From Clostridiaceae bacterium (lineage in GTDB: Bacteria; Bacillota; Clostridia; DSM-8532), in the NCBI GenBank assembly GCA_012728095.1, contig JAAYFU010000001.1:1-64000 (forward strand): DNA of 64,000 nucleotides. The letters are read 5' to 3'. This document shows positions 40,117-49,787 of this stretch, in pieces. Positions within the stretch are counted from its first letter, which is position 1, and every line of letters begins with the position of its first letter. The position numbers were made by a program, and so were the translations under genes. The notes beneath the pieces are model-generated. The model did no database searches. It was not told the DNA's origin and saw nothing but the letters and a program-made list of their open reading frames with translations.

Positions 40117-40280
40117 ATATACTCACCTTCCCCCTAATTTTGCAATTTTTTATATTTAATTATAAAGTTGTCCTGTCTTGTATTCAGCAAATGACAATCA
40201 GGATTCAATGACAAAATAATAAAAACTGTCATTGTACCCCGTGGAAGTATAAGTTAGAATTGTTAACAGGGGGGAATTCT

Positions 40281-42143
40281 ATGATGTTTAAATCAAAGCT
40301 TAATTATTTATTCGAAAACATGAGGTTTTCGAATGTTGAAGTGGCTCGTGCAGGTAATTTTGACGCTTCACTCATTAGCAGGTTCCGTACCGGAAAACGA
40401 ATTCCTTCCAAAGGAAGCCGGCAAATATACTGTTTATGTAAAGGTCTTTCAAGAGCAGCCCAGGAACGTGGAACTTTAGATCAACTGTGTATATTATGTA
40501 AAATTAACGCTGGGAATGATTTGGAACTAATTACCGACCAATTGCTTCGATGGCTTGATACTCCTGATTTAAAAAAAGAAAGAACCAGTAAAAATGAAAT
40601 TCCCAAAACGAAATCTACAAAAAAGCTTAAAGCTTTTTCAGAGAAACTGAATGCTTTAATGGAGACTTTTGACATATCTAATATTAAGCTGGCTCAGGTC
40701 ATGCATATCGACGCTTCCCTGGTAAGCAGGTATCGTACCGGTATGCGGATTCCTACCGCAAACAGTTGGTTTCCCGAACAATTCTGCCAATGGCTGGTGA
40801 AAAAGATAAAATCATATCCATATGATAAGGTCAATGAGCTCTTGTCTCCGCTTATTGGTGATCCTGTGCCGAAAAAGGTAATCGAACTCAAAAAAAAATT
40901 GCTGGAATGGATGCAATCAGAACTGGAAACCGATGAAACCATTATTTCGAGCAGTTTTTTAGACAAGCTGAATTCTTATGAACCCATATTTGAGATGCCC
41001 TCAAATATTACAGATTCTTTTCCTGTTATACCTGAAAGTCAACCGGATTCCGAAATTTTTTATGGGATTGAATGTCTTAGAAAAGCCGTAATAAAGCTTT
41101 TGACCATAGCCGCTTCCCAGGATGAGGGTACACTTTACCTATATTCCGATCAGCCATTGGACTGGTTGACAGAAGACTCTGAATTTGCAAAGCTTTGGTC
41201 CTCATTAATGTCAAAGGTATTATATCGAAAAAACCAAATATATATCATACACAATATACATCGTTCCCTTAGTGAAATGTTGGAAGTTATTCAAAAATGG
41301 ATTCCCCTTTACATGATTGGATTAATAAAGCCCTATTACTTGAATAATAAACAGAATTCCAACTTTTGCCAAACCAAATTTATTCTATCGGGTAAGTGCA
41401 GTATTAATTCTTCCTTTGTATACGGAACGCAGGATTCAGCCGAATACGAATTTTGCACTGAAAAAAGCCGTGTTGAATATCAATTCCGGCAATTCAACGA
41501 GCTTTTGAATAATAGTCTTCCCCTTGTTAATGTTTTTTCTTTAAGGAATCCGGATGATTTTCGGGCCTTCACACAAACTTATATTAAAAAGTCCGGTCAT
41601 GAAATACATTTAAGATATACCTTGCCAATCTCAACAATGCCGGACGAAACGTTTGAAAGTATACTATTACGCAGCAATCTTAGCCATGAAGAAAAAGCAT
41701 TGGCCGAAGAATATCGCAATAATAATGTTGAAGATTTTATAAATTCATTGAAAGAATACAGTATAACAGATTTAATAGCCATCCCTGATGAAAACGAAAT
41801 TAAATCCCATAAAGTCAAGATTGATTTGCCCAGGCCAATCATAGGGAAAACATTGTTTTATGAGGAGGCCGAGCTTTCAAGTCATTTAGCAAATATTAAA
41901 CGACTTCTTACAGATAATGAAAACTATTATTTGTATATACTCCCTGAAAGTCCTTTTGAAAACATCTTTATTTCGGTTATAGGAGAGGAGCAGTCCATCG
42001 TGGTGAAAGTGGATAATCACGTAACTGCATTTCTTTTCAATCATCCACACATGAATCGTACTCTTTCTTCATACCTTAATTCAATTGCAGAAAAGGCAAC
42101 GCCTTGGGATAATAAAGAGAATAACACTTTGCCCGCCTATTAA
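40281..42143 (+). CDS. Tandem helix-turn-helix protein of unknown function
   Basis: About 620 residues. Two XRE/Cro-like HTH units share a striking motif: ASLISRFRTGKRIP near residue 29 and ASLVSRYRTGMRIP near residue 150, an internal duplication. The remaining 400 residues match no domain I know; they are soluble, with a mixed alpha/beta look. GGGGGG stands 6 nt before the ATG at 40281; the frame opens at 40260. It is flanked by unrelated genes. Probably a transcriptional regulator with a sensor domain, but only the HTH units support this. Confidence 0.75.
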   Translation: MMFKSKLNYLFENMRFSNVEVARAGNFDASLISRFRTGKRIPSKGSRQIYCLCKGLSRAAQERGTLDQLCILCKINAGNDLELITDQLLRWLDTPDLKKERTSKNEIPKTKSTKKLKAFSEKLNALMETFDISNIKLAQVMHIDASLVSRYRTGMRIPTANSWFPEQFCQWLVKKIKSYPYDKVNELLSPLIGDPVPKKVIELKKKLLEWMQSELETDETIISSSFLDKLNSYEPIFEMPSNITDSFPVIPESQPDSEIFYGIECLRKAVIKLLTIAASQDEGTLYLYSDQPLDWLTEDSEFAKLWSSLMSKVLYRKNQIYIIHNIHRSLSEMLEVIQKWIPLYMIGLIKPYYLNNKQNSNFCQTKFILSGKCSINSSFVYGTQDSAEYEFCTEKSRVEYQFRQFNELLNNSLPLVNVFSLRNPDDFRAFTQTYIKKSGHEIHLRYTLPISTMPDETFESILLRSNLSHEEKALAEEYRNNNVEDFINSLKEYSITDLIAIPDENEIKSHKVKIDLPRPIIGKTLFYEEAELSSHLANIKRLLTDNENYYLYILPESPFENIFISVIGEEQSIVVKVDNHVTAFLFNHPHMNRTLSSYLNSIAEKATPWDNKENNTLPAY

Positions 42144-44947: not shown

Positions 44948-45526
44948 TTATTTCGACCTTTCTTTGCTCTTAACTTCCCGTCTTCTTAAGTATAAATAGA
45001 GACCGCCAACGCATATTATCAAACCCGTAACGGCAGGCTTCAGGATGGACAGCCCGGCATCACCGCTGAAAATAACGCTCCAAAGAACCTTCAGGACTGC
45101 CGCTCCTATTACAGTACCTAAAAGCCATTTCCAGCTTCTTTTCCATGCGGCTGTAATTAGCATCACAAAGAAAATCGGCACTAATAAACTGATTAATATT
45201 TTAGGGGCAGTCCAGGCGCCTTTTAAGTACTCCATCTCATAGGCTAGGAATGATAATACCCTGGGATCGCTCTCAGCCGGCGCGGGAAACCAGAACATGC
45301 TGGTAAACAGGGCGAATATGGAGCCAAATATACCGGTTAAGCTTTTTTTAAAGGCGAAAATTACAATCGGTACAATAAAGAGGGGCCTGATATACCAGCT
45401 CAAAACATTATGGTGCCTTGCAAACGCCCAGTTAAAGAAGGTTTCATTCGTCAAGAAAATAGTTATAAATATTACCGTAGCAACTGCAAATAAGATTCCC
45501 AGAACTAAATCTAATTTCTTAATCAT
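44948..45526 (-). CDS. Six-helix integral membrane protein of unknown function
   Basis: 192 residues with about six hydrophobic segments (around 7-27, 40-58, 64-82, 108-126, 133-152 and 158-178) and a basic tail (RRREVKSKERSK). No motif that I recognise. AGGAG precedes the ATG. It is immediately upstream of the nitroreductase. Confidence 0.75.
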   Translation of the reverse strand: MIKKLDLVLGILFAVATVIFITIFLTNETFFNWAFARHHNVLSWYIRPLFIVPIVIFAFKKSLTGIFGSIFALFTSMFWFPAPAESDPRVLSFLAYEMEYLKGAWTAPKILISLLVPIFFVMLITAAWKRSWKWLLGTVIGAAVLKVLWSVIFSGDAGLSILKPAVTGLIICVGGLYLYLRRREVKSKERSK

Positions 45527-45667
45527 AGCTAATTTACTCCTTTAAGTATTATATTAACTTAAAATTCTCGTATAAAACAGTGAATAATAACATGAGATTA
45601 GTTTTTCTATTTTAGTAATTAAAATTTTGATTAGATCGGTAAAAAATAAGTTAAAATTAACAAAAAT

Positions 45668-45699
45668 AAAAGCCTTCACGGTTCTTCCGCAAAGGCTTT
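45668..45699 (-). terminator. Intrinsic terminator of the opine-dehydrogenase cluster
   Basis: On the minus strand AAAGCCTTTGCGG-AAGAA-CCGTGAAGGCTTT forms a strong stem followed by TATTTTTG. It lies 28 bp after the stop at 45727 and closes the three-gene unit. Confidence 0.85.
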
Positions 45700-45726
45700 C
45701 TCTTGTTTTTATATATTATTATTATA

Positions 45727-46836
45727 TTATACTATATCGCTTTTCAGCTCTTCTACCTGTCCCATGGACAGTTTATCATCAATTATACGCTGCAATATTG
45801 TTTCTCCCAGCCGTTCAACAGTTCTGCCCTCTGCCCTTAAATCTCGTTTTAAGGCAGCAGACGCAATATTAATTAAAGCAGTACAAATTGGTGTATCAAC
45901 ATTAAGCTTTGAACCCAGGCTTTCAAGAAGGACCAGTCCTTGAGGCACATCCTCTGAAATATACCTTGAATCAACTTTCGTAGGCCCCTTTGCCCTGGTA
46001 GGCATACTTGCATACCAGAAGAATACTTCTTTGGCATCCCTGGTATCATCTAATGTATTTCTGTACTTACAGGCTTCCACGTAAGGAATCCTCTCACATC
46101 CCAGTTTTTCCATTACATCCATCTTCTCTTTGTCCAGTTTTTCGAGAATATTCCATACACTTGGGGTGAATACCTCATGATACATGCAATAATCGCCATT
46201 GGTCTTTTCAATTCGAGGAATGCTCATGATACCTCCAACTGTATGCACAATCAGGTTGGGATTATGAAGCGCCGCCTCGATTACCGATGGGAGATAGGCA
46301 AACGGGTAACCAAGATTATTCAGTATCTTGGCGCTTTCATTAGTCCGGCATACGGGATATATACCCAAAGGATTTCGTACATTGCGAAAACCGACTTTTA
46401 TAGTTCCCGGTTCACTGATCCGGCAATCTACAAAAGAGCTCTGGGCTTCGCAAACAGTAAGGTTAATATCAGGGCAATGCTTCAGTACATAAGCGGTAGA
46501 CAGATAACCAGGGTTGAAAAGAATGATCTGCCCGTCACGAAGATATGGTTTTATGCGCTTTATCAAGTCTTCATGATAATTGGTTTGGATATAAATAATG
46601 ACAACCTGGCTTTTACTGATTCGGGAAATATCCCTGGATACATGCTTGATTCTCGCTGTTACTGTTTTGCCGTTTTCAATGATTTTAACGATGCCATTAT
46701 TTTCAATAAGATAATTAAAGTTATCATCATGCATGGAATTTGACGTTTTAATTAAACTGACATCATGTCCTCGCATGCTTAATTCTGCGGCTACAGCCGT
46801 CCCGCCGTTACCTGCTCCTAAAATGGAAATGTTCAT
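45727..46836 (-). CDS. Opine dehydrogenase-family protein, copy 1
   Basis: NAD/NADP octopine/nopaline dehydrogenase family, 369 residues. Such enzymes reductively join an amino acid amine to a 2-oxo acid, or run in reverse. The Rossmann start ISILGAGNGGTAVAAELS has a GxGxxG-type loop; the helical C-terminal domain holds LHNPNLIVHTVGGIMS, the family's conserved Asn/His region. About 70% identical by eye to the copy at 48070-49155. GAAAGGAGA precedes the ATG. It lies 140 bp after the ATP-grasp gene, and its leader shares sequence blocks with the leader of copy 2. Confidence 0.88.
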   Translation of the reverse strand: MNISILGAGNGGTAVAAELSMRGHDVSLIKTSNSMHDDNFNYLIENNGIVKIIENGKTVTARIKHVSRDISRISKSQVVIIYIQTNYHEDLIKRIKPYLRDGQIILFNPGYLSTAYVLKHCPDINLTVCEAQSSFVDCRISEPGTIKVGFRNVRNPLGIYPVCRTNESAKILNNLGYPFAYLPSVIEAALHNPNLIVHTVGGIMSIPRIEKTNGDYCMYHEVFTPSVWNILEKLDKEKMDVMEKLGCERIPYVEACKYRNTLDDTRDAKEVFFWYASMPTRAKGPTKVDSRYISEDVPQGLVLLESLGSKLNVDTPICTALINIASAALKRDLRAEGRTVERLGETILQRIIDDKLSMGQVEELKSDIV

Positions 46837-46976
46837 ACATCAATCTCCTTTCTTATGAATTTTGTTTTGTCATCGTAAATAAAGCGCAGTTTAATAAAGC
46901 ATCTTTTATTTTCACGTAATGATTCTTCAGCAACTAAAAAAAGAATATTTTTGTTTCGGATAATTAAGGTATACGG

Positions 46977-48089
46977 TTAAAAAGCAAATTCGTTCTTATT
47001 TAAAAATATTGTATCCAAGACAGCCTCAGTAATATCTCCGAAAAGCGGCCCGCAGCTTACCTGGTTCATTCCGGGCGCTCCGTTGTATTCGATGAATACA
47101 GGATCGCCAGCCTCATCGACTGCAAAATCCCAGCCTATTATGCGAAAATGCGGGGTATCCAAATGGGCTCTTCGAATTAATGAAATAATACGGTCATAAG
47201 AAGGTATTTTAATCTCGCTGAAAACAGTTCCGCCCGGATGTTTTTCTGTCCACCGGGAAAGCTTATCCATAGCCTTGTCCTCGAGCCTTCCGTCAGGCTG
47301 TATCGGACAGGCAAGTCCACCTGCTGAAACATTGTCGAGTCTCGATCCTCCCACGCCCATCCGCAGGATGGATGAAGAAATATGTACCTCGCCCCCAAAC
47401 AGGAATGAGATTACCCGTATTGTATTCAAAGATGAGGGATGTATTGCTGCCAATATTTCATGCTGCGTTATTACTTCCTGAACTATATAGTCAGTGCCAT
47501 ATGATTCCATCAGTTTCTGAATATCCATGTTAGGACAGCTATCTTTATCATAGAAAAAGACATTTACTCCTTCGCCGCTGTATATGGCAGGCTTTATCAC
47601 AAATCTTTTCTCGGATTCCAGGAGCGATTTAGCCTGACTGAAGCTTATAATCCTGCCAGAACCGTCATAGAAACAATGGTTGCTGTTTTTAAGTATTGTC
47701 CTGGGTTGTTTCAAATAGGGAAACAACCGGCCGTAAGAGCATTTATCGGTATATGCATGACGAAAGCCGGGCCTGTTGAATGCAGGGTAAATTTTTTGCC
47801 AATACAGGTCCTCGGGTATATACCTTGGGTCATATTTATTATCCTTAAAGCAATACAGGTCATACCACATTTTATCAGGCCTGATATTGTATTTTCTCCA
47901 AAATGAAAGAACCTCGGAACGGAAAAGCTCCTTACTACCCCTAAAGCCTCCATTAATAGTTTTAAGTTGTTCTCTGCAGCTCTTTCGCGCTTTTCTCGCC
48001 TCCATATAAAGGTCAACACTTTGATAAAACGACCTGCATAGTCTTTCCCATCTTCCTGCCTTATTGATTTCATGCATATACACCAACAC
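46977..48089 (-). CDS. ATP-grasp protein (sugar-transfer associated type)
   Basis: About 370 residues. ATP-grasp features: FVIKPAIYSGEGVNVFF (ATP lysine and glycine loop), YIVQEVITQHE, an Arg-rich NTIRVISFLFGG and the metal-binding end GWDFAVDEAGDPVFIEYNGAPG with Glu and Asn ligands. It resembles the ATPgrasp_ST family, whose members are found with polysaccharide genes. Here it sits between two opine dehydrogenases, so an amino-acid ligase role is attractive but inferred. It overlaps copy 2 by 20 bp. The start is unclear among GTG 48089, GTG 48083 and ATG 48077. Confidence 0.85.
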   Translation of the reverse strand: MLVYMHEINKAGRWERLCRSFYQSVDLYMEARKARKSCREQLKTINGGFRGSKELFRSEVLSFWRKYNIRPDKMWYDLYCFKDNKYDPRYIPEDLYWQKIYPAFNRPGFRHAYTDKCSYGRLFPYLKQPRTILKNSNHCFYDGSGRIISFSQAKSLLESEKRFVIKPAIYSGEGVNVFFYDKDSCPNMDIQKLMESYGTDYIVQEVITQHEILAAIHPSSLNTIRVISFLFGGEVHISSSILRMGVGGSRLDNVSAGGLACPIQPDGRLEDKAMDKLSRWTEKHPGGTVFSEIKIPSYDRIISLIRRAHLDTPHFRIIGWDFAVDEAGDPVFIEYNGAPGMNQVSCGPLFGDITEAVLDTIFLNKNEFAF

Positions 48090-49155
48090 CTGTCTCCTGG
48101 AATATCCTTTCCAGATTATCCCTTCCCAGTCTTTCCACTGTCCTGCCCTCCAGTCTGAAATCGCGTCCCAGGGCAGCTGAGGCTATATCTATCAAAGAAG
48201 AACATATCGGCGTAGCAACATCGTACTCTAAACCCAGGGATTCCAATAGCACTAACCCCTGAGGAACATCTTCGGTAATATATCTTGAATCGACTCTTGT
48301 CGGTCCCTTTAACGGATTGGGGAGATTGGCATACCAAAAGAAAACTTCCTTGGCGTCACGGGTATCATCCAACGTGTTACGGAATTTGCAGGCTTCTACG
48401 TAAGGAACCCGCTTACATCCCAGCTTCTCCATGACATCCATTTTTTCGTTGTCCAGTTCCTCCAGAATACTCCATACACTGGGCGTGAAGACCTCTCTGT
48501 ACATGTAATACTCGCCATTGGTTTTTTCAATGCGGGGAATACTCATTATTCCACCAATTGTGTGTACAATAAGGTTCGGATTGTGCAGCGCAGCATCAAC
48601 TACTGAAGGAAGATATACAAAAGGATAACCCAGTTTGTTAAGCTTTTTTTCGCACTCTTCCCTGTGATTTGCCGGAAAGATTCCCAACGGATTTCTTTTA
48701 TTGCGAAAAGTAATGCTGACAGTACCAGGCTCACTGATCCGGCAGTCAATAAATGAACTTTCGGCTTCAACAACTGTCAGTTTGATATCTCCGCAATGTT
48801 TCAACACATAGGCTGTTGAAAGGTATCCGGGATTTAACAGCAGGATCTGTCCGTCCCGAAGATACGGTTTGATTCTCTTTATCAACTGTTCATGATAATT
48901 TGTTTGTATGTATACGATTATTATTTCGGTGCTGCTTATACAAGATAAATCTCTTGTGACATGCGCAATATGCGCCAACCGGGTTTCATCTTTTTCTATA
49001 AGTCGGACTGCACCATTATTATGGATCAGATAATCGAAATTTTTATTGTGCATGGCATGGGATGTTTTGATCAACGTCACCTCATGCCCACGTAAGCTGA
49101 GGTCAGCCGCAACCGCAGTACCGGCATGACCTGCCCCCAGGATAGAAATACGCAT
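48070..49155 (-). CDS. Opine dehydrogenase-family protein, copy 2
   Basis: 361 residues, first gene of the cluster. Rossmann start ISILGAGHAGTAVAADLS, QTNYHEQLIKRIKPYLRDG, LHNPNLIVHTIGGIMS and NTLDDTRDAKEVFFWYA are nearly identical to copy 1; the two differ most between residues 45 and 75 and at the C-terminus. Having two copies suggests different amine or keto-acid partners. AAAGGGTG precedes the ATG. The promoter is about 245 nt upstream, leaving a long structured leader. Confidence 0.88.
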   Translation of the reverse strand: MRISILGAGHAGTAVAADLSLRGHEVTLIKTSHAMHNKNFDYLIHNNGAVRLIEKDETRLAHIAHVTRDLSCISSTEIIIVYIQTNYHEQLIKRIKPYLRDGQILLLNPGYLSTAYVLKHCGDIKLTVVEAESSFIDCRISEPGTVSITFRNKRNPLGIFPANHREECEKKLNKLGYPFVYLPSVVDAALHNPNLIVHTIGGIMSIPRIEKTNGEYYMYREVFTPSVWSILEELDNEKMDVMEKLGCKRVPYVEACKFRNTLDDTRDAKEVFFWYANLPNPLKGPTRVDSRYITEDVPQGLVLLESLGLEYDVATPICSSLIDIASAALGRDFRLEGRTVERLGRDNLERIFQETGVGVYA

Positions 49156-49402
49156 ATCATCACCCTTTCAGTTATATAAATTAAAATTATTATTTATAAA
49201 ATAAAATTAATAGATAAAATAAGCGCAGCTAAAAAACAGTGTCATCAGCAAAGCACAATTAAATAATTCTGGTGTTTAATAAAACATGCGTTTTTTGAAT
49301 GATTTGAATTATTTAAAGAATATTGTTGCTTTGGAATCCATTAAAAACCGTTTTATCATAAGGCATATAAAACGTCATAATGGATTTGGATTTACAGTTT
49401 TC
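49156..49402 (-). promoter_or_regulatory. Long structured leader of the opine-dehydrogenase cluster
   Basis: About 245 nt between promoter and first gene with no ORF. On the minus strand a two-part hairpin pairs 49386-49378 with 49343-49335 (9 bp, AATCCATTA/TAATGGATT) and, inside it, 49374-49367 with 49356-49349 (8 bp, CGTTTTAT/ATAAAACG). A second helix pairs 49314-49306 with 49269-49261 (9 bp). Blocks 49274-49287 and 49221-49228 recur in the leader of copy 1 (46889-46902, 46882-46889). It could be a regulatory RNA; no known riboswitch core was recognised. Confidence 0.55.
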
Positions 49403-49408
49403 CATTAC

Positions 49409-49437
49409 ATTATACCATAATAATTATATTATGACAA
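49409..49437 (-). promoter_or_regulatory. Sigma-A promoter of the opine-dehydrogenase cluster
   Basis: On the minus strand: TTGTCA (49437-49432), a 17-bp spacer and TATAAT (49414-49409). The start would be near 49402. Confidence 0.75.
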
Positions 49438-49558: not shown

Positions 49559-49641
49559 TGGTGCGGACAAAGGGACTTGAACCCCCACGGTTTCCCGCTA
49601 GATCCTAAATCTAGTGCGTCTGCCAATTCCGCCATGTCCGC
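49559..49641 (-). tRNA. tRNA-Leu, anticodon UAG
   Basis: On the minus strand GCGGACA pairs with TGTCCGC as acceptor stem, with discriminator A and encoded CCA (49561-49559). D-arm GGCGGAATTGGCAGAC, anticodon stem CTAGA/TCTAG with loop TTTAGGA (anticodon TAG, reading CUN leucine codons), a class II variable arm (GGGAAACC) and T-arm GGGGGTTCAAGTCCC. The long variable arm supports leucine. Confidence 0.96.
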
Positions 49642-49787
49642 AGATTTAATACTTTGCAATTATAGCAACGGTTTCAGCGTTTGTCAAGTTATCCGAAGAC
49701 GGCAATGTCCACTGTTGACCGGCATTATAACTTCATTTTATATAATATAAACCTCCGATCAGACCGGAAAATATTTTAGCCAGAATT

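Follow-up and report, generated by a model that had tools for sequence, protein, structure and literature searches.

The 64,000-nt window analyzed here (positions 1 to 64,000 of contig JAAYFU010000001.1, Clostridiaceae bacterium, GenBank assembly GCA_012728095.1) contains a cassette of three minus-strand genes forming one apparent operon, in which two paralogous genes of the opine-dehydrogenase (ODH) family, ODH1 and ODH2, flank an ATP-grasp ligase gene, AG. In the order ODH1, AG, ODH2, they encode proteins of 361 amino acids (48070..49155), 366 amino acids (46977..48077, from an ATG at 48077), and 369 amino acids (45727..46836). Open reading frames (ORFs) were called with our own script; the listed AG ORF opens at a GTG at 48089, 12 nt before the likely ATG start, and this start overlaps the ODH1 stop codon at 48070-48077 (ATGCATGA). 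AG and ODH2 are separated by 140 nt in the window, versus -4 to 86 nt in relatives. A promoter with an extended -10 element (TTGTCA-17-TATAAT with TG before the -10; 11/12 matches) lies at 49409..49437 on the minus strand (read 49437-49409), followed by an AT-rich leader of ~250 nt (23% GC) before ODH1, and an intrinsic terminator with a 14-pair stem and a T tail is located on the same strand 27 nt past ODH2 (45668..45700). The promoter region 49329-49423 was 78% conserved in the sister-species locus L104 by blastn, and the terminator region 45666-45702 was 92% identical in the sister-species locus L088 (L and G numbers denote loci and genomes). The initial annotation, which had described a single unit with promoter and terminator, was thus borne out on the ORFs and on both signals. 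An Rfam riboswitch or T-box, sought because such an element would have named the amino acid, was detected ahead of the unit neither in the window nor in L004-L016 and L018-L020, and a search around the cassette for flanking inverted repeats as a mark of a mobile element gave nothing convincing.

Both dehydrogenases belong to the opine-dehydrogenase family, as had been proposed. They match the Octopine_DH C-terminal domain (PF02317) at 152 and 138.8 bits against a curated cut-off of 30, with E-values of 1.6e-44 for ODH2 and 1.8e-40 for ODH1, and the only other Pfam families matched were generic Rossmann families. The Rossmann GxGxxG/A motif reads GAGNGG in ODH2 and GAGHAG in ODH1, with G7, G9, and G12 invariant. 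H198, R291, and D296 are invariant across 40 ODH sequences and align with H202, R292, and D297 of ArODH, the Arthrobacter N-(1-D-carboxyethyl)-L-norvaline dehydrogenase (CENDH; 1bg6), so that the catalytic His-Asp dyad is kept in the cassette ODHs; W274 lies near the conserved active-site tryptophan region, where the alignment to 1bg6 is gapped. The AlphaFold model of ODH1 (pLDDT 92.6) found 1bg6 as its best PDB match (TM 0.82/0.85), followed by octopine, pseudopaline, and staphylopine dehydrogenases. ArODH and the cassette ODHs thus share the fold, the two-domain layout, the His/Arg/Asp catalytic positions, and Asn at specificity position 198, but they are only ~25% identical, and the cassette ODHs have Tyr instead of Ala at position 111. 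In characterized ODHs, a preference for acidic amino acids has been tied to Arg at 111 and Gly at 198 in ArODH numbering (PMC10787698); this pair is absent from both cassette ODHs, which have Tyr111 and Asn194 (equivalent to 198). A third PF02317 gene of the same genome (G000:C75:478-909; L001:1-2409), which directly precedes a gene for a B12-binding-domain protein, has Arg and Gly at this pair by eye, unlike the cassette ODHs.

The gene between them encodes an ATP-grasp protein, again as originally read. AG matched PF14397, the "sugar-transfer associated ATP-grasp" family, at 129 bits (E 2.5e-37; cut-off 31.4). Numbered from the ATG at 48077, K162, D317, E330, and N332 are invariant in 25 sequences; they make up the Lys of ATP-grasp enzymes and the metal triad (D317-E330-N332, D-x12-E-x-N). 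The predicted model (pLDDT 90) had RimK, Ddl, LysX/ArgX, and glutathione synthetase as nearest folds over the ATP-grasp part, and the helical N-terminus of ~110 residues had no Pfam match. The dN/dS ratio was ~0.04 (0.075/1.82) for ODH1 against L004 and ~0.10-0.15 for all three cassette genes between L005 and L007. Catalytic residues are thus retained and purifying selection acts in all three genes, and the cassette enzymes look functional.

A one-genome-per-species scan gave 43 loci, among which 21 close loci (the window, L005-L019, L021-L023, L044, and L070) were checkable, having a close ODH2-type gene and enough upstream DNA. ODH2 was present in every one, and AG or an AG relic lay directly upstream of it in 21/21. 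Sixteen loci had a full-length AG; the gene was interrupted in L006 and L011 and truncated in L021, and relics were left in L018 (a weak match at E 0.001 that covers 30 residues and contains a stop) and L070 (56 residues from the C-terminus). The full triple was found in six (the window, L005, L006, L007, L008, and L012), so the neighborhood suggested by the first reading does recur in relatives; ODH1 relics lay upstream of AG in L011 and L013, and in L004, ODH1 stands at a contig end. AG and ODH distances covaried over 24 loci (r = 0.90; 0/5000 permutations), and also within the close group (r = 0.54) and the other group (r = 0.71; 5/5000 permutations each), as expected for co-inheritance. 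The association of AG with ODH2 is not due to chance. Most loci come from metagenome-assembled genomes, so the frameshifts in L006 and L011 and the missing copies may in part be assembly faults, all the more so because paralogues 74% identical can break contigs.

The genes surrounding the unit differ between loci. Two sister species in the window's genus hold parts of the unit in the same neighborhood as the window: in G007, ODH2 adjoins MP192 (the window gene at 44948-45526) and a nitroreductase gene, and G010 has the ODH1 side of the unit, with MP192 and the nitroreductase on another contig. ODH was present in 6/33 genomes of the order, 10/391 of the class sample, and 3/398 of the phylum sample, counts that include the window's own genome each time and come from searches with differing E-value limits. 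The unit is therefore rare and patchy, a distribution that fits horizontal spread and loss; a search of 72,556 plasmids (E 1e-40) gave no match. A tRNA-Leu gene (49562-49687) lies immediately upstream of the cassette and has a terminator of its own and an extended -10 promoter that matches at 12/12 positions. In G010, this tRNA gene is inverted, and a gene for an FMN/pyridine-nucleotide oxidoreductase lies between it and ODH1. Elsewhere in the window, a 627-amino-acid ORF (40260-42143) without a Pfam match has two similar N-terminal repeats that by eye resemble phage-repressor-like helix-turn-helix regions.

ODH1 and ODH2 are 74% identical over 354 amino acids without a gap; their paralogy had been recognized from the outset, and the estimate of about 70% was slightly low. 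All seven ODH1 copies lay on one side of a branch in a tree of 47 rows; the support for this branch was 91/72, which is not decisive, and 100/97 when L024 was added. H10, A11, and D18 occur in 7/7 ODH1 copies, whereas ODH2 copies have N10 and E18 in 17/17 and G11 in 15/17. Y217, R220, and L282 are found in six of the seven ODH1 copies, and F292 and P281 in five. The window's ODH1 carries the GAGHAG cofactor loop, D18, Y217, R220, and P281-L282 and retains Y292; its ODH2 keeps the ancestral N10 and Y292. Because remoter homologues retain N10 and Y292, the changes at positions 10 and 292 are derived in ODH1. Position 10 aligns with ArODH N14, so ODH1 differs from ArODH in having His there, at a cleft position where N-to-H occurs among characterized ODHs (PMC10787698). 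The ODH1 relics in L011 and L013 both bear the H-A-D signature, which argues that the triple was ancestral to these loci and that ODH1 was later lost there.

The two dehydrogenases might instead be dosage or backup copies of one activity, in which case the arrangement would have no special logic. Their identity is compatible with this, and most close relatives (L009-L011, L013-L017, L019, L022, L023, and L044) either lack ODH1 or have it in decayed form, so that it is dispensable. However, the ODH1 copies form one clade with fixed private residues, whose signature extends to both relics and includes the cleft-position His, and we consider simple redundancy doubtful. This question is a separate axis from that of the product, and confidences across the two need not sum to one. 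The single clade, with its modest support, and the private substitutions, including a cleft residue, suggest that ODH1 and ODH2 probably differ in function; we infer that the difference lies in substrate or cofactor preference.

More distant ODHs, 57-66% identical (L025-L043 and L046), were found in Bacilli and in rumen and gut Clostridia. In nine of these loci (L026, L029, L030, L033, L035, L038, L039, L043, and L046), the gene immediately before ODH is an AG homologue, the same gene order as AG-ODH2 in the cassette. Most of the nine, as well as L025, L032, L040, L041, and L042, contain surface-polymer genes: additional ATPgrasp_ST copies, TupA-like ATP-grasps, PGA_cap capsule proteins, UDP-glucose dehydrogenase, sugar transferases, DegT aminotransferases, epimerases, flippases, and EpsG, some of these neighbors being identified by eye from their sequences. 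A Polysacc_synt_2 gene and undecaprenyl-phosphate genes occur close to L028 and L036. Harmless, cultivable carriers of such a related ODH within a glycan locus include Ruminococcus flavefaciens Y1 and Cerasibacillus quisquiliarum. The initial annotation had set against its own proposal the case that the ATP-grasp gene consistently belongs to a polysaccharide locus; many distant AG-ODH pairs do show this association, but the window's own clade does not, its cassette being solitary. As a result, a modifier of the wall or a surface polymer becomes the best of the three products it had offered for an amino-acid-derived conjugate pathway (opine, metallophore, or wall modifier); such a pathway is itself likely.

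Several distant loci have further features. In the capsule-like locus L026, a 467-amino-acid protein without a Pfam match (L026:9058-10458) is encoded between the ATPgrasp_ST-ODH pair and a second ATPgrasp_ST gene, which is followed by a PGA_cap-like gene. The polysaccharide loci L029, L038, L039, and L043 also hold GNAT acetyltransferase and PLP-enzyme (PALP) genes, mostly fused, which possibly supply an amino-acid substrate. In L072 (G124:C187, 3-3995), a distant ODH gene (58% identical) lies near URO-D-type and MTTB-type methyltransferase genes, hinting at a separate context for ODH-like proteins with corrinoid methyltransferases.

The probable role of the cassette is to make an unusual amino-acid decoration, with a cell-surface polymer as its likeliest site. 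In the scheme we favor, ODH2 would catalyze the NAD(P)H-dependent reductive coupling of a 2-oxo acid with an amino acid or another amine to yield an N-(carboxyalkyl) amino acid, and ODH1 would run a like reaction with a different substrate. AG would use ATP to convert a carboxylate to an acyl phosphate and then, with an amine, to an amide that links an acceptor with either the opine or the amino acid from which it is made. As acceptor, we consider a uronic acid or an amino sugar within a cell-surface glycan, or within a related polymer of the envelope, the likeliest. This polymer would be made elsewhere in the genome by its own unlinked genes, so that the cassette would act in trans. We infer the chemistry and the reaction order, as well as the acceptor and the part played by each ODH. 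A precedent for such chemistry exists in the O-antigens of Providencia: the P. alcalifaciens O35 glycan carries N-(1-carboxyethyl)alanine (alanopine), and in P. rustigianii O14, N-epsilon-(1-carboxyethyl)lysine is amide-linked to galacturonic acid (PMC10609480). An opine amide-linked to a sugar is the predicted kind of product, but these organisms are Gram-negative, and no open paper was found that links an ODH and ATP-grasp pair to their O-antigens. Because the link to a polymer comes from the distant pairs and this known glycan chemistry, not from the window's own neighborhood, we put forward the whole reading, with a surface glycan or related envelope polymer as likeliest acceptor, only tentatively.

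Several observations weigh against it. No glycan gene was seen adjoining the cassette in the window or in any close relative, where the neighbors are unrelated and variable, and some distant ODHs (L027, L031, L034, and L111) are solitary, with neither AG nor glycan genes. Because nearly all genomes of the order have UDP-glucose dehydrogenase, its co-occurrence with ODH is uninformative. ODH2 is intact in L018 and L070 despite the AG relic and hence may also act without AG. This persistence of ODH2, together with the reversibility of opine dehydrogenase reactions, would also suit a catabolic unit in which the ODHs oxidize environmental opines to an amino acid and a 2-oxo acid and AG has an unrelated role. 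However, the cassette shows no consistent linkage to an opine permease, binding protein, or amidase, and its tight coupling with an ATP-consuming ligase points to synthesis; we regard catabolism as very improbable and as the least likely of the readings.

The strongest rival to a surface decoration is a soluble conjugate. Here, the ODHs would make one or two opines, and AG would join an opine to an amino acid, or two opines, to give a pseudopeptide that would not be attached to any polymer but would serve as metal ligand, osmolyte, signal, or storage compound. The solitary cassette, in variable contexts and with no adjoining glycan genes in the window's clade, suits this product, as do the dipeptide and glutathione ligases among the nearest folds of AG. 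Opine metallophores exist in other bacteria, and the staphylopine, pseudopaline, and yersinopine dehydrogenases share the opine dehydrogenase fold (6c4t, 6pbm, and 6c4l were among the ODH1-model matches), but these enzymes are longer (~420-430 amino acids) and more distant in fold (TM 0.70-0.76). Opine metallophore systems use a nicotianamine-like synthase and dedicated export. No Cnt-type nicotianamine-like synthase or transporter gene was found among the Pfam-scanned window neighbors, two small ones of which had no Pfam match, or among the recurrent families of the relatives' neighbors, and neighbors in the window's clade yielded no recurrent family beyond sporadic ZIP or ABC matches. Assignment of the ODHs as Cnt-type opine metallophore dehydrogenases was rejected: they gave only PF02317 and generic Rossmann matches, and their nearest structure is ArODH. 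Since the ODHs are PF02317 proteins, not of the staphylopine type, and no transport or metallophore partner recurs among the window flanks and 52 neighbors in relatives, the metallophore option of the initial annotation is weak. More broadly, transporters, nicotianamine-synthase-like genes, and metal regulators do not recur next to the cassette, and AG belongs to a sugar-transfer-associated family whose members pair with ODH inside polysaccharide loci. A soluble product is possible, but on balance unlikely.

Like other PF14397 and TupA-like PF14305 ligases, AG, itself in PF14397, has kept the Lys and metal triad of ATP-grasp enzymes, but in the window's clade, it differs from these in lying outside polysaccharide loci, in being paired with opine dehydrogenases, and in its N-terminus without a Pfam match. 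Conversely, the cassette ODHs differ from ArODH in sharing an operon with an ATP-grasp ligase and a diverged paralogue. In the open literature searched (subscription papers were outside its scope), no paper contained both "opine dehydrogenase" and "ATP-grasp," no precedent combined opine with capsule, O-antigen, or glycan, and neither the ODH1-AG-ODH2 arrangement nor AG-ODH pairs in capsule loci appeared. The family of each enzyme is known; their combination with a split ODH pair is apparently new.

Crown gall, invertebrate fermentation, and metallophores are the main settings in which opine synthesis is known. If the surface-decoration reading is true, the cassette would connect opine synthesis with the modification of surface polymers by ATP-grasp enzymes in Gram-positive anaerobes, and would supply genes for an O-antigen chemistry for which no assigned ODH-ligase pair was found in the open literature, in a gene set compact and simple enough for expression and assay. 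A stronger form of the proposal, which we think rather improbable, is that the cassette is a portable opine-decoration module, in which the two ODHs would make two different N-carboxyalkyl amino acids and the one ATP-grasp ligase would attach them to a surface polymer encoded at an unlinked locus. In that case, the product would be an undescribed class of opine-substituted envelope polymer in Gram-positive anaerobes, with related modules inside the capsule loci of rumen and gut Clostridia.

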